From positions 124,001-188,000 of the forward strand of contig NZ_AP026695.1 in the NCBI RefSeq assembly GCF_025998175.1: a stretch of 64,000 bases of DNA. Direction: 5' to 3'. This stretch comes from Nitrosopumilus zosterae (lineage in GTDB: Archaea; Thermoproteota; Nitrososphaeria; Nitrososphaerales; Nitrosopumilaceae). The position numbers and the translations under genes are program-made. Under the pieces are notes generated by a model that did not search any database, was not told the origin of the DNA, and saw only the letters and a program-made list of their open reading frames with translations. This document shows positions 42,642 to 54,423 of the stretch, piece after piece (within the stretch, counting starts at the first letter, position 1; every line of letters begins with the position of its first letter).

Positions 42642-43721
42642 GTGAAAATAAGAACAAAATCTTCCATAATTAGACATATTCCAGTAATTCACGGGGGAAG
42701 ACACTCTTTAAAAAATTCTAATCCTCAAATATTGGATTTTAGTTCCAACATTAATCCACTTGGAATCCCTCCATCCGTAAAAAACTTCCTTAAAAAAAAT
42801 CTTGACACTATTCAAAATTATCCTGATTTAGACTCGTCTGAACTAATTTTAAGTATAAAAAAATACACGCAATTAGATAAATCAAATATTCTTGTTGGAA
42901 ATGGTGCAATTGAACTAATCTATAATTTCTGTTTTGCCTTTCTGTCTGGAAAAAAAGTATTGATTCCTGTTCCTACTTTTCAAGAATATGAAACTGCAGC
43001 AAAACTCAACAACAGTAAAATTTCATTTTTTAAAACATTAGATTTGTCTGAAAATATTAATTCATTTATTTCAAAAATTCCAAGAAATGGTTGCATCTTT
43101 ATTTGTAATCCTAATAATCCTACAGGAAAACTTTTGCCAAAAAAACAAATGCTAAAAATAATTCAAAAAGCACAAAAAAATTCTTCTTTAGTATTTGTTG
43201 ATGAATGCTTTATTGAACTAGTTCCTGAATCCAACGAATCAGTAATATCATATATAAAAAAATACGATAATCTATTTGTTTTACGTTCTTTGACTAAATC
43301 TTTTGGATTTCCTGGATTGAGAATAGGTTACGCAGTAGCATCAAAGCAAATAGTTGAAATTTTGCAGAAAATAAAAATCCCATGGAGTGTAAATTCCCTA
43401 GCACAACATGCAGCAAAAATTTCTCTTAACAATAAATCTCATATCACAAAATCAAAATTAGTTATTAAAAAGGAATCAAACTTTCTAAAAAATAAAATCA
43501 ATCAATTTTATGGATTTGAATGCTGTGATTCTTCAACAAATTTTATTTTGATAAAAACAATTCATGATTCAACAGAATTACAAAAAAAATTACTCAAACA
43601 TAAAATCCTTATTCGAGACTGTAAAAATTTTCGAGGATTAGACAATCATTATTTTCGTATTGCTGTAAAATCTCATAAGGATAACATAAAACTAGTAAAA
43701 GCATTGGAGAATTTCACATGA
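42642..43721 (+). CDS. cobD: L-threonine-phosphate decarboxylase-type PLP enzyme (cobalamin)
   Basis: 359 aa from GTG 42642; TATA-like CATACTAAAT is centred about 26 nt upstream. Fold-type I aminotransferase related to HisC. VIHGGRH near the start and DFSSNINPLGIPPSV are typical of the CobD decarboxylase, with PLP Lys in LTKSFGFPGLRIGYA. It supplies aminopropanol phosphate for the cobalamin side chain. First gene of a five-gene cobalamin operon, overlapping cobQ by 4 nt. HisC function is the less likely alternative. Confidence 0.85.
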   Translation: MKIRTKSSIIRHIPVIHGGRHSLKNSNPQILDFSSNINPLGIPPSVKNFLKKNLDTIQNYPDLDSSELILSIKKYTQLDKSNILVGNGAIELIYNFCFAFLSGKKVLIPVPTFQEYETAAKLNNSKISFFKTLDLSENINSFISKIPRNGCIFICNPNNPTGKLLPKKQMLKIIQKAQKNSSLVFVDECFIELVPESNESVISYIKKYDNLFVLRSLTKSFGFPGLRIGYAVASKQIVEILQKIKIPWSVNSLAQHAAKISLNNKSHITKSKLVIKKESNFLKNKINQFYGFECCDSSTNFILIKTIHDSTELQKKLLKHKILIRDCKNFRGLDNHYFRIAVKSHKDNIKLVKALENFT

Positions 43722-44557
43722 AATCATTAATGATTCAGGGAACATCTTCTGGTGCTGGAAAAACAACTCTGGTTGCAGCTCTTTGCCGAATTTTTTCAGA
43801 TAAAGGATACAATGTTGCTCCATTCAAATCCCAAAATATGTCAAATTTTGGATATGTTACGCCTACATTTGAGATTTCCAGAGCACAAGCTATCCAAGCA
43901 ATTGGTGCTCGTTGTACAATCACTCCTGACTTGAATCCTATATTGCTCAAGCCAATAGGAAATTACAATAGCATTGTATATCTACATGGAAAACGCTACA
44001 AAAAAATGCATGCAAAAGATTACTATGAAAAATTTGTAAATACCAAAGGATTCAACATTGCATCTAGATCTTTGAAAACATTGCAAAAAAATTTTGATTT
44101 AGTAATTTTAGAAGGTGCAGGATCGCCTGCTGAAATTAATTTACAAAAATTTGATATTGCAAACATGCGAATTGCGGAAAGAGCAAAAGCTTCAGTATTA
44201 CTTGTTTCTGATATTGACAAGGGCGGTTCCTTTGCAAGTATTGTAGGAACTATGGCTTTAATTGAAAAAAAATATCAACAGCTTGTAAAAGGTTTCATAT
44301 TTAACAAATTTAGAGGGGATATTGATGTGCTAAAACCAGGATTTCAAAAACTCAAAAAACTTACAACTATTCCCGTTGTTGGTACTGTCCCACTAATATC
44401 ACTAGATTTACCCGAAGAGGATTCTCTTCATGCAAAACCTAAAGATATCACATGGAATAAGAAAAATCTTTTAAAAATTGATAATGAACTAAATCGATTA
44501 GCAAAAACTGTAAAATCAAACATTGATATCAAATCAATTGAGAGAATGCTAAAATGA
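43718..44557 (+). CDS. cobQ: Cobyric acid synthase, ATPase domain only
   Basis: 279 aa, compared with roughly 480-500 for the usual CobQ/CbiP. The N-terminal DTB-synthetase-like ATPase domain is intact: P-loop GTSSGAGKTT (8-17), PFKSQNMSNF, LEGAGSPAEINL, ANMRIAERA, VSDIDKGGSFASIVGT. The C-terminal class I glutamine amidotransferase domain with its Cys-His-Glu triad is absent, and the next gene begins 4 nt before the stop, leaving no room for it. It amidates cobyrinic-acid side chains; here ammonia may be used directly or a separate glutaminase recruited (inference). Confidence 0.85.
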   Translation: MKSLMIQGTSSGAGKTTLVAALCRIFSDKGYNVAPFKSQNMSNFGYVTPTFEISRAQAIQAIGARCTITPDLNPILLKPIGNYNSIVYLHGKRYKKMHAKDYYEKFVNTKGFNIASRSLKTLQKNFDLVILEGAGSPAEINLQKFDIANMRIAERAKASVLLVSDIDKGGSFASIVGTMALIEKKYQQLVKGFIFNKFRGDIDVLKPGFQKLKKLTTIPVVGTVPLISLDLPEEDSLHAKPKDITWNKKNLLKIDNELNRLAKTVKSNIDIKSIERMLK

Positions 44558-45522
44558 TTCTTGAATCTATTTTTATTGTTGGTATTGCAATTTTTATTGA
44601 TTTAACATTAGGGGATCCAAAAAATAAATATCATCCTACTGTTTGGATGGGCAAATTAATTGCTACACTAACACCTATTGCAAAAAATAAAAATCCTACA
44701 ATTGAAAAAACTGGAGGAATTTTAATCATAATTATTACTAGTCTGATTGTTATCTCATTACTTTTAATTTTAAATGTTGGAATATCTCTAATCTCTTTTG
44801 ATTACATTTCAATTATAGTGTATGTAATTGTTGGTGGATTATTACTAAAAACCACAATTGCTATTAGAGGAATGGAAAATCACACCCATAAAATTCTAGA
44901 ATTCCTTGATAATGATCTAGATGGGGCTAGAGCAAATCTGTCTATGATAGTTAAGAGAAATACTAAGAATCTGGATAAAAATCATGTAATTTCAGGCATG
45001 TTGGAGAGCATTAGTGAAAATACTGTTGATGGGATAACCGGTCCTCTTTTCTATTTTTCAATTTTTGGTTTGCCTGGAGCATTTATGTATAGAGTAATTA
45101 ACACTGCAGATTCAATGATTGGATACAGGACAGATCTATTCAAAAATGTAGGATGGTTTGCTGCAACTTGTGACACCATTTTGAACTATGTTCCATCTAG
45201 ACTTACAGGCTTGACTATGATTATTTCAGCTGCTATCTTAAAAAATAATTGGAAGAAATCATACAAAATCATGATTCGTGATGGCAAAAAAACTGAAAGT
45301 CCAAATGCTGGATATCCTATGGCTGCATTAGCAGGAGCGCTTGAAACAAAATTTGAAAAGATAAATCACTACAAGTTAGGTGACGGTGAAATTACATTAA
45401 CAAAAGAACACGTGTACTCTGCAATAACAATGATGAAACTTACATCAATTCTCTTCTTTGGAATAGTTACAATTCCAATAATTTCCATTTTGTCTTTAAT
45501 TGGATGGTGGATTCATGCTTAA
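44554..45522 (+). CDS. cbiB: Adenosylcobinamide-phosphate synthase CbiB
   Basis: 322 aa integral membrane protein. LTLGDPKNKYHPTVWMGKLI near the N-terminus, NLSMIVKRNTKNLD, SESISENTVDGITGPLFY-type motif and GYRTDLFKNVGWFAA are family signatures. It attaches aminopropanol phosphate to adenosylcobyric acid. It overlaps cobQ by 4 nt and cobS by 8 nt. Confidence 0.95.
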   Translation: MILESIFIVGIAIFIDLTLGDPKNKYHPTVWMGKLIATLTPIAKNKNPTIEKTGGILIIIITSLIVISLLLILNVGISLISFDYISIIVYVIVGGLLLKTTIAIRGMENHTHKILEFLDNDLDGARANLSMIVKRNTKNLDKNHVISGMLESISENTVDGITGPLFYFSIFGLPGAFMYRVINTADSMIGYRTDLFKNVGWFAATCDTILNYVPSRLTGLTMIISAAILKNNWKKSYKIMIRDGKKTESPNAGYPMAALAGALETKFEKINHYKLGDGEITLTKEHVYSAITMMKLTSILFFGIVTIPIISILSLIGWWIHA

Positions 45523-46240
45523 AGAAATAAGTTCTGTTTTTTCATTTCTTACAATATTTCCATCTTCAAATACGACTCTAGAAAATATCGCAAAATACAT
45601 GTATCTTTTTCCTATAGTTGGAATTGCAATTGGACTTTTAGTCGGTTCTTTTGGATTTGGTTTATCCTTCTTTTTAGATCCGTTGTTAGTTAGTTTGTTA
45701 GTTGTAGCTTTTATTGCAATCGTAACTGGAATTCATCATGCAGACGGCTTGGCTGATTTTGCTGACGGATTAATGGTCAAAGGTAGTAAAGATAAAAAGC
45801 TAAAAGCGATGAAAGATCTTTCAACTGGTTCTGCAGGAATTGTTGGAATAGTGTTATATCTAATTGGATTGGTGATTACAGTTTCACTTACAAGTGGATT
45901 TGATTTGTTTAAAGCAATTTTGATTAGTGAAATTCTAGCAAAATTCTCAATGGTATTGCTGGCCAGTCTTGGAAATTCAGCCTCCTTAGGCTCCAATTCA
46001 CCTTTTGTAGACGTGATGAAAGATAAGAAAAAACTCACTGCCGCATTCATAATCATGCTAATTCCTGTCATCGCTATTGGTGAAACAACTGGATTAGTAA
46101 TGCTCGGCGTAACTGTAACTCTTGTTATTTTTCTTTTAGCACTATCCACTCGTAGTTTTGGTGGAATTACTGGTGACGTGCTTGGCGCTACAAATGAACT
46201 CACAAGATTAGCTTCATTGATGGTGTTTGTATCAATATGA
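45515..46240 (+). CDS. cobS: Adenosylcobinamide-GDP ribazoletransferase
   Basis: 241 aa from ATG 45515. Multi-pass membrane enzyme joining activated cobinamide with alpha-ribazole. Key motifs: SFLTIFPSS, GIHHADGLADFADGLM (Asp-rich metal site, about residues 75-90), DLSTGSAGIVG, GGITGDVLGATNEL. Overlaps cbiB at its start and cobY at its stop (4 nt). Confidence 0.95.
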   Translation: MLKEISSVFSFLTIFPSSNTTLENIAKYMYLFPIVGIAIGLLVGSFGFGLSFFLDPLLVSLLVVAFIAIVTGIHHADGLADFADGLMVKGSKDKKLKAMKDLSTGSAGIVGIVLYLIGLVITVSLTSGFDLFKAILISEILAKFSMVLLASLGNSASLGSNSPFVDVMKDKKKLTAAFIIMLIPVIAIGETTGLVMLGVTVTLVIFLLALSTRSFGGITGDVLGATNELTRLASLMVFVSI

Positions 46241-46821
46241 TTGGGATTGTGATGGCTGGTGGGAAAGGCACTCGTATGAATTTAGATGACGAAAAATTAT
46301 TGCTCAAATACAAAAAACCAATCATACTTCACGTAATTGATTCATTAAACAATTCCAATCTTTTTTCAAAAATTCTAGCAATCACAAGTTCTAATTCTCC
46401 TAAAACAAAAAAACTACTTCAAGAAAATAATATTGAAATCTTTGACACTCCTGGAATTGGTTATGTTGAAGATCTAAATTTAGTACTAAAGGCAATAGAT
46501 GATCAAGTTTTAGTTACTTCTGGCGATTTACCTTTATTGGATGGAGAGATAATCAAAAAAATTGTAAACCAATATGACTCTCAAAAAACATGGACTAGCA
46601 TCCTTGTAACTAAAAAATTCCTTTCTTCACTTGGACTTGAATCTGATTATCCAGTAAATTTTTCTGATCAAGTATGCCATTATACTGGGATTTCATTAGT
46701 AAATTCAAAAAAAATTACATCGCTTGAAACTTTAGATGAAAATTATATCATATTTGATGATAAGAGACTTGCATTTAATCTAAATTCTAAACAGGATTAT
46801 GATTTACTCAGCACTACCTGA
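46237..46821 (+). CDS. cobY: Adenosylcobinamide-phosphate guanylyltransferase CobY
   Basis: 194 aa nucleotidyltransferase, the archaeal non-orthologous replacement for CobU. N-terminal VMAGGKGTRM GTP-binding loop (residues 6-15), then LVTSGDLPLL (metal Asp). It activates cobinamide phosphate with GTP. Last gene of the operon; its 3' end overlaps the convergent S27e gene by 18 nt. Confidence 0.93.
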   Translation: MIGIVMAGGKGTRMNLDDEKLLLKYKKPIILHVIDSLNNSNLFSKILAITSSNSPKTKKLLQENNIEIFDTPGIGYVEDLNLVLKAIDDQVLVTSGDLPLLDGEIIKKIVNQYDSQKTWTSILVTKKFLSSLGLESDYPVNFSDQVCHYTGISLVNSKKITSLETLDENYIIFDDKRLAFNLNSKQDYDLLSTT

Positions 46822-52319: not shown

Positions 52320-53843
52320 CTACTGTGGCTCAATCGTTGCAGGCGGTTTACTTGAAATTGTGTATGTTACCCATGTGACATCTTCAATCTCATTTGTTAT
52401 TCTATTACTCATCTTCTCTAAAAGTCCATGTGGAAGTCGAGTCCAATCTGCCGTCATTGCATCTATTGAATCTACGACTCTAATCATTACAATATTTCCA
52501 TATCTTCGTTCATCACCAACTACGCCTACTGCTCTATCATCACCTACAGCTGCATAAGCTTGCCATACTTTATCATACAAATTAGCTTCTAGTAATTCAT
52601 CTTCAACAATTCTACTAGCCACTTTTGCAATCGTTAGTTTAGTTGGGGTTACCTCTCCGATTATTCTGACAGCTAGTCCTGGACCGGGAAATGGATGTCT
52701 CATGAAAAGCTTTTCTGGAACTTGAAGAATTTTTGCTATTTTTCTTACCTCATCTTTATACAGTTCCCTTAATGGTTCTAAAATTTCTAAATTAAGCCAA
52801 TCTGGCAGTCCTCCTACATTGTGGTGAGATTTTATCACAGCTGCAGGACCTTTGGAGACTCCACTCTCAATCACATCTGGGTATAGTGTTCCTTGAGCCA
52901 GCCATTTGAAGGGACCATTTTTTTCTGCAAACTCTGTAAAAACATGAATGAATTCCTCACCCACAATCATTCTTTTCTTTTCAGGATCTTCTACACCTTT
53001 GAGTTTCCCAAGAAATTGATCAGCAGCATCAATTGAAGTAAAATTCACTTTGAAATTATCTTTAAACATCGCCTCAATTTCTTTTTCTTCATTTAATCGT
53101 AAGAGGCCATTATTTACAAAAACACACTTTAGTCTATCCCCGATTGCTTTGTGAATTAGTAGTGCCACTACTGTGGAATCTATCCCACCACTAACTCCAC
53201 AAAGTACATTTCCTTCAATTTTAGAAATTTTCTCTACTGCAGAATCAATAAATCCCTCCATAGTCCAATCTTGATTTGCACCACAAACTTTCAAAACAAA
53301 ATTCTTGAGAATTTCTGTACCTTGTTCTGTATGTACTACTTCTGGATGAAATTGAATTCCATAAATTGATTTGTTTTCTGATGCAATTGCCGCAGCTTTT
53401 GCACCTTCTGTATGTCCAATAACTTGAAATCCAGGTGGAATTTGCTCAGCTTCATCACCGTGACTCATCCATGCTCTAACTGATTCTCCAATCCCATTTA
53501 GAAGATCTTTGTCATTATCAATTGTAAGCAAAGATGAACCATATTCTTTGTTTGCTCTTTTTACTTTGCCGCCGTACTTGTTAACAATTAATTGATGTCC
53601 GTAACAAATTCCGAGTAACGGTAAATTCATTTCAAATATTTTATTTTCAGGAACTGGGGCATCTGAATTATAAACGCTTGATGGTCCTCCAGAAAAAATT
53701 ATTCCTTTTGGATTAAGTTTCTGTAATTCCTCAAAACTAATATCATAAGGTACAAGTTCTGCATAAACTGAAAATTCTCTTATTCTTCTGCAAATCAAAT
53801 GGCTATACTGTGACCCGAAATCTAAAACTACTATTTTGTCCAT
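52320..53843 (-). CDS. guaA: GMP synthase (glutamine-hydrolysing)
   Basis: 507 aa from ATG 53843. A TTG at 53867 is also in frame but lies inside the upstream gene. The N-terminal GATase class I has Cys80 (LGICYGHQ) and FHPEVVHTEQG (His/Glu). The ATP-pyrophosphatase domain has GVSGGIDSTV (PP-loop), and the C-terminal dimerisation domain ends ISSKPPATIEPQ. It makes GMP from XMP, the product of guaB in this window. Confidence 0.97.
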   Translation of the reverse strand: MDKIVVLDFGSQYSHLICRRIREFSVYAELVPYDISFEELQKLNPKGIIFSGGPSSVYNSDAPVPENKIFEMNLPLLGICYGHQLIVNKYGGKVKRANKEYGSSLLTIDNDKDLLNGIGESVRAWMSHGDEAEQIPPGFQVIGHTEGAKAAAIASENKSIYGIQFHPEVVHTEQGTEILKNFVLKVCGANQDWTMEGFIDSAVEKISKIEGNVLCGVSGGIDSTVVALLIHKAIGDRLKCVFVNNGLLRLNEEKEIEAMFKDNFKVNFTSIDAADQFLGKLKGVEDPEKKRMIVGEEFIHVFTEFAEKNGPFKWLAQGTLYPDVIESGVSKGPAAVIKSHHNVGGLPDWLNLEILEPLRELYKDEVRKIAKILQVPEKLFMRHPFPGPGLAVRIIGEVTPTKLTIAKVASRIVEDELLEANLYDKVWQAYAAVGDDRAVGVVGDERRYGNIVMIRVVDSIDAMTADWTRLPHGLLEKMSNRITNEIEDVTWVTYTISSKPPATIEPQ

Positions 53844-53847
53844 GTTA

Positions 53848-54423
53848 TCACTTTTTGATATTTTCAAGCATTCTAGTTAATGACCACCCTGCTGTGTTAA
53901 TTAATTCGTTGACTCTTTCTTTTTGTCTGTAGTTTTTAATTATGATTTCTCTAATATCTGATCCATTTTTGTTAATTATGTAATCAATAATTGACTCTTT
54001 TTGGATTTTTCCGTTCTCCGCTTCTTGGAAATCTTTCTTTTTCATTTCCCCAATAATTCTGTCTAAGAAGAATGATTTGAAGGGTGGGGTGTCTGCATTT
54101 ATCATAATTTCATTGTCTAAAACTATGGATAATTGCTCTGGTGTAACATATGCATTAGCAATTATCTTGCCATCGTTTACTCTTTTAATTGGAATTGAAT
54201 TTTCCACTGGGTTTTCAATAATTTCTGGTTTGGAATGGGTTTCTGGCCCTTTTTTCATTTCTAATTGAGATGCTTTTGTAAAACTAGAATCTTTTAAGAA
54301 TAAATCTAAAACAGTGATGTTTTTTTCTAACATTTCAATGGATTCTTGATGTTTGTCTATTTGTTCTACCAAACTTTCTTTCATAGCGACAATTTCCTTT
54401 ACCTGCTCTTCAGAAAATTTCAT
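53848..54423 (-). CDS. Hypothetical coiled-coil protein upstream of guaA
   Basis: 191 aa. An N-terminal coiled coil (VKEIVAMKESLVEQIDKHQESIEMLEKNITVL) is followed by a basic, alpha/beta C-terminal part (IANAYVTPEQLSIVLDNEIMINADTPPFKSFFLDRIIG). Not a recognised family. 4 nt before the guaA ATG and probably cotranscribed with it; typical of a group-specific conserved gene. Confidence 0.65.
   Translation of the reverse strand: MKFSEEQVKEIVAMKESLVEQIDKHQESIEMLEKNITVLDLFLKDSSFTKASQLEMKKGPETHSKPEIIENPVENSIPIKRVNDGKIIANAYVTPEQLSIVLDNEIMINADTPPFKSFFLDRIIGEMKKKDFQEAENGKIQKESIIDYIINKNGSDIREIIIKNYRQKERVNELINTAGWSLTRMLENIKK

Follow-up and report, generated by a model that had tools for sequence, protein, structure and literature searches.

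The window, a 64,000-nucleotide stretch of the Nitrosopumilus zosterae genome, carries a run of cobalamin genes on the forward strand, among them cobQ (cbiP; positions 43718 to 44557). The gene codes for a short form of cobyric acid synthase, 279 amino acids in length and recognized by NF001989, that lacks the glutaminase domain. Its start is overlapped by a cobD-like gene for threonine-phosphate decarboxylase (42642 to 43721; TIGR01140, 301.5 bits, above the cut-off), and its stop, as the earlier note had observed, overlaps the next gene. The latter is cbiB, coding for adenosylcobinamide-phosphate synthase (44554 to 45522; TIGR00380, 281.9 bits, above the cut-off). Both overlaps measure four bases, and the one between cobQ and cbiB reads ATGA. 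Farther along are cobS, for adenosylcobinamide-GDP ribazoletransferase (45500 to 46240; TIGR00317, 170.2 bits, above the cut-off), and a cobY-like nucleotidyltransferase gene (46237 to 46821), named from its operon position along with matches to TIGR00454 (94.7 bits) and NF045495 (88.4 bits) that both fall below their cut-offs. The host genome is a single contig of 1,775,052 bases, and it contains an archaeal AmoA, which bears out the earlier description of this organism as an ammonia oxidizer.

In the usual CobQ/CbiP reaction, glutamine is the source of four amides that are added with the use of ATP, as described in passages of PMC7242693. The earlier note had read the window protein as a CobQ whose ATPase domain is complete and whose glutaminase is missing, and family models agree. 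Residues 2 to 242 match positions 1 to 241 of NF001989, a 480-position model of cobyric acid synthase, with 328.8 bits (cut-off, 273). The match to TIGR00313 ends at position 250 of 477, and its score of 295.6 bits falls just below the equivalog cut-off of 309.9, as expected because half of CobQ is missing. A Pfam search detected the CbiA/AAA_26 nucleotide-binding domain but gave no match to PF07685 (GATase_3), a domain that is also absent when the protein is aligned with full-length CobQ. The ATPase/amide-ligase domain spans residues 1 to 236 (43718 to 44425) and includes the P-loop GTSSGAGKT (residues 8 to 16), EGAGSPAEIN (132 to 141), DIDKGG (165 to 170), and EEDS (233 to 236). Within this domain, the window protein keeps 81 of the 99 columns that are invariant in 14 full-length relatives; 62 columns are invariant across those 14 and all 37 short forms. 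Structure prediction from the short CobQ sequence by itself yielded a model too poor to use (mean pLDDT, 31.7), a sequence search of the PDB returned no significant match (best E value, 0.85), and no CobQ relatives were found in viral contigs.

How the domain was lost is evidenced by what follows it. When the window protein is aligned with the full-length CobQ proteins of sister lineages, a short linker (44426 to 44476) marks the excision point, where those relatives have about 200 residues of GATase_3. Beyond the linker, the last 26 residues of the window protein (254 to 279; 44477 to 44554) align with the tail found beyond the glutaminase domain of full-length CobQ, an assignment made by both tail-profile score and profile alignment. 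A profile built from 14 outgroup tails gives the window tail 23.6 bits, compared to 8.8 bits for the best of 1850 shuffled tails. The same profile scores all 37 short tails, and 36 of them exceed the best shuffle, the weakest having 8.7 bits; L010, which has no readable open reading frame, was left out of this set. Moreover, profile comparison puts the tails of short forms from family f1 at positions 459 to 504, and those from group g23 at positions 452 to 507, of a 513-position profile, with no other significant placement on it. Tail conservation is not above that of the rest of CobQ. Because the tail after the glutaminase is kept, the glutaminase must have been cut from inside the protein rather than lost by truncation. 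Judged by its sequence, the window protein is a genuine orthologous CobQ whose glutaminase was lost by internal excision.

Across the ammonia-oxidizing archaea (AOA) that were sampled, the short form is the rule. A search of 200 same-family genomes found a CobQ match over the cut-off in 178, and the over-cut-off matches listed all end by model position 313, in frames of 279 to 309 amino acids. The comparison of lengths that the earlier note had suggested, therefore, reveals a shared short form, and the full-length CobQ in relatives that it had named as a sign of assembly error does not appear among the same-family matches listed. In a class-wide survey of 400 genomes, 286 were over the cut-off; among the matches listed, 22 reach at least model position 475, and the remaining ones are short. 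Additional searches covered two genomes of family f5 and seven of f2, and nine CobQ sequences were read from f3 (L063 and eight more). The families f1, f2, f3, and f5 are presumably Nitrosopumilaceae, Nitrosocaldaceae, Nitrososphaeraceae, and a fourth family. The short architecture, with its conserved tail, occurs in three AOA families, single-contig genomes included. Three f1 genomes with weaker CobQ matches (G081, G093, and G194) were left out of closer reading. Outside the class, in 250 Thermoproteota genomes with a completeness of 80% or more, every over-cut-off non-AOA CobQ reaches at least model position 447.

Ammonia-oxidizer status was scored by AmoA in 57 genomes, of which 28 were positive. 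None of these 28 combines a full-length CobQ with a complete set of motifs: 25 belong to the short group, in which some f3 members were placed by E value or frame length only, and three carry a dead glutaminase domain. By comparison, 20 of the 22 genomes with full-length CobQ are AmoA negative, and the Cys (G[IVL]CGG), YEIH, and HG motifs are intact in every one of the 20. The two AmoA-positive members of the 22 are G255 and G248, to which G420 from f5 adds a third case. One f3 genome (G368, 79% complete) has a short-type CobQ by E value and no AmoA match.

The three AmoA-positive genomes in which the GATase domain is still attached (G255, G248, and G420) have lost its catalytic motifs to different degrees. 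In the f5 pair, G248 and G420, the Cys remains but YEIH and the His of HG are gone, whereas G255 has lost all three. L053, the CobQ of G255, is 443 amino acids long versus about 505 in active relatives; it is thus about 60 residues shorter, and its gaps fall within the GATase part, which looks as though the dead domain were being worn away piecemeal ahead of excision. The ratio of GATase to ATPase identity is 0.70 for G248 and G420, versus 0.71 to 0.92 within active pairs, which hints faintly at relaxed constraint on the dead domain.

Phylogeny indicates that the dead domain was removed more than once. In a tree of the CobQ ATPase domain, AOA form one clade (95/98) with full-length non-AOA CobQ outside, and descent is therefore vertical. 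The RpoB tree also recovers AOA as one clade (100/100) and groups f5, with its dead domain, with f1 and f3 (98/99), which come together (96/95). Forcing the 14 short-form genomes into a single clade on RpoB costs 25.4 log units and is rejected (p-AU, 0.0036); at least two excisions of the dead domain are therefore required. This count comes from RpoB, because the CobQ tree does not order the inner AOA branches, and the RpoB tree does not fix the order in which G255, g23, and the remaining AOA split. The RpoB search of 30 genomes found no match in G018 and G229, and the tree omits two partial genes (G273 and G250) and a duplicate (the second of G387). Domain loss, dead intermediates, and repeated excision are established at the level of sequence.

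Is ammonia oxidation the cause? Evidence from bacteria suggests that it is not sufficient. A bacterial amoA primer reached 11 genomes, picked by title from 21 primer matches, and these yielded one CobQ, which is full-length. In the family of that genome, an ammonia-oxidizing Nitrosomonas, for which ammonia oxidation was taken from the family and not from AmoA genome by genome, 43 of 125 genomes have a CobQ over the cut-off. Forty of these 43 are full-length (reaching 466 to 479 of 480), three are cut by contig ends, and all 21 sequences that were read keep the catalytic motifs (16 under strict matching and five by eye on the alignment). Bacterial ammonia oxidizers (AOB) keep the CobQ glutaminase. 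Conversely, two Thermoproteota genomes outside the AOA class encode divergent CobQ-like proteins of 313 to 319 amino acids without a glutaminase (L219 609 to 1550 and L220 453 to 1394, in G539 of family f47; L221 366 to 1325, in G584 of family f62). These proteins combine the ATPase part with the CobQ tail (27.3 and 19.8 bits, versus 7.3 for the best of 1000 decoys) and have EGTGPSK or EGSGPSK in place of EGAGSPAEIN; they may be a further kind of amide ligase that lacks a GATase and acts on a different substrate. Ammonia oxidation therefore does not force loss of the glutaminase, nor is the loss confined to it. Also, because the loss from CobQ maps to one clade, its link to AmoA is a single phylogenetic event and not repeated evidence.

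Other glutaminases of AOA lead to the same conclusion. CobB, the sole GATase_3 protein of the host genome, is full-length at 451 amino acids and adjoins cbiC. Among 19 CobB loci (AOA and non-AOA), nine AOA sequences were readable, and all nine keep the Cys, GHEFH, and YxH motifs. One f5 genome (G248, 97% complete) has no CobB-type match listed in the PF07685 search, while its sister G420 has one; this absence is probably a gap in a draft genome. Glutaminase motifs are kept as well in PyrG and in GuaA, which lies in the window on the reverse strand (52320 to 53867). Family models confirmed the identity of CobB and GuaA, and CbiC, PdxT, PurQ, and PyrG were named from sequence. Retention of glutaminases in CobB, GuaA, and PyrG implies that ammonia is no general substitute for glutamine in AOA. 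The earlier note had proposed that direct ammonia use would make the CobQ glutaminase dispensable in an organism living on free ammonia. One part of this idea is supported, in that using ammonia directly offers the most economical mechanism once the glutaminase is gone. The causal part is not supported, because AOB keep the domain, AOA keep other glutaminases, and two non-AOA genomes have glutaminase-less proteins.

We propose, with a probability of roughly 60%, that the window gene encodes an ammonia-dependent, single-domain cobyric acid synthetase that arose when a dead glutaminase was excised, as happened at least twice. In this model, the GATase domain, not yet removed, lost its catalytic residues in the stem or among early AOA, and the dead domain was later excised on at least two occasions, joining the ATPase domain via a short linker to the old tail. 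Using ATP, the short CobQ would activate adenosylcobyrinic acid a,c-diamide at its b, d, e, and g carboxylates, and amidation with free cytosolic NH3 would replace amidation with NH3 channelled from glutamine. For a synthetase that has no glutaminase left, the simplest donor is free NH3. The tail may have survived because it belongs with the core or dimer of the synthetase and not with the glutaminase. We also lean toward the broader view that all AOA switched CobQ from glutamine to free ammonia, with the active site lost near their origin, fossils left in two lineages, and at least two excisions that spared the tail.

A doubtful but serious alternative is that a glutaminase acts in trans, with either a standalone class-I GATase or the GATase domain of CobB feeding ammonia to the short CobQ. 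A PF07685 search of the host genome marks five places (CobB, PdxT, PurQ, a class-I GATase, and PyrG), and neither a second CobQ nor an orphan glutaminase of the CobQ or CobBQ type was found in this complete one-contig genome. The orphan CobBQ-type partner that the earlier note had raised is thus missing, as is the second complete CobQ that it had said would overturn its reading, whereas a class-I GATase (PF00117; L004 1417 to 2100, at 412 kb) is present. Among 24 genomes tested, this standalone protein occurs in 15 of 16 AOA versus 2 of 8 non-AOA; it has intact GICLG and QFH.EV motifs (Cys and His-Glu) and no known partner, and the catalytic triad of CobB is likewise kept in the nine AOA sequences read. 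However, family models assign L004-type proteins to the GMPS/TrpG type and not to the CobQ type. Across eight loci (L004 and L212 to L218), they are not linked to cob genes and instead have other neighbors, with glutamate dehydrogenase nearby in three and an ATP-grasp acyl-CoA synthetase-like gene (about 650 to 720 amino acids) downstream in four. The class-I GATase is also missing from G273, which has a short CobQ, yet present in G265 and G276, which have an intact one. Finally, the dead domain of f5 and G255 still occupies the docking site, so replacement by a trans-acting glutaminase is disfavored in those lineages.

It is far less probable that the short protein no longer performs the four CobQ amidations and that another enzyme, such as CobB, has taken them over. 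The shortfall against TIGR00313 would fit such a change, but it is what the missing half predicts, and the protein passes the NF001989 cut-off. Moreover, the ATPase columns are shared between short and full-length forms, the gene remains in the cob operon, and no other CobQ is there to do the work. An assembly error, frameshift, or local pseudogene has a negligible chance of being correct, since it is refuted by the same architecture in three AOA families, the conserved tail, and the stop/start overlap in the window.

Physiology argues for an active enzyme too. According to portions of PMC8281238, cultures of Nitrosopumilus maritimus SCM1 have cobalamins in the medium and grow the same with or without added B12, and AOA are regarded in passages of PMC4303638 as leading ocean B12 producers. 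Because AOA make cobalamin, the short CobQ very probably works. Searches of open papers, together with passages of PMC3541065, PMC4303638, PMC8281238, PMC9530722, PMC8123684, PMC11237513, and PMC7242693, did not bring up any reference to an AOA CobQ without a glutaminase; subscription literature mostly lay outside this scope. If our proposal is true, the late amidations of B12 in AOA would be tied to ammonium supply and not to glutamine, and a natural single-domain CobQ would be at hand for mechanism studies and engineering. The stepwise record of active, dead, and excised domains illustrates how an amidotransferase loses its glutaminase, and the contrast with AOB makes the cause of that loss a testable question. 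The 11 markers used in PMC4303638 include cbiP_cobQ (TIGR00313), whose curated cut-off the window protein just misses.

Several known systems offer points of comparison. The two-domain CobQ/CbiP (EC 6.3.5.10; TIGR00313 and NF001989) shares the ATPase domain, tail, and operon context, and presumably the product, but here GATase_3 is excised in short forms or dead in G248, G420, and G255. In MurT/GatD, the synthetase is likewise apart from a CobQ-like glutaminase; there, GatD is a separate CobQ-type GATase partner of MurT, and no such partner was found here. Carbamoyl phosphate synthetase I keeps a glutaminase domain that is dead and not excised, and it uses NH3 directly. It is a different enzyme, and a retained dead domain with direct use of NH3 is likewise what we propose for f5 and G255. 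The NAD synthetase NadE has a fold unrelated to that of CobQ. Like the short CobQ, its single-domain form is an amide ligase without a glutaminase, and PMC3376133 describes its physiological use of ammonia, a donor that the short CobQ would share. The direction of change is reversed, however: in NadE the single-domain form is ancestral and the glutaminase was gained, whereas in CobQ the glutaminase is ancestral and was lost.
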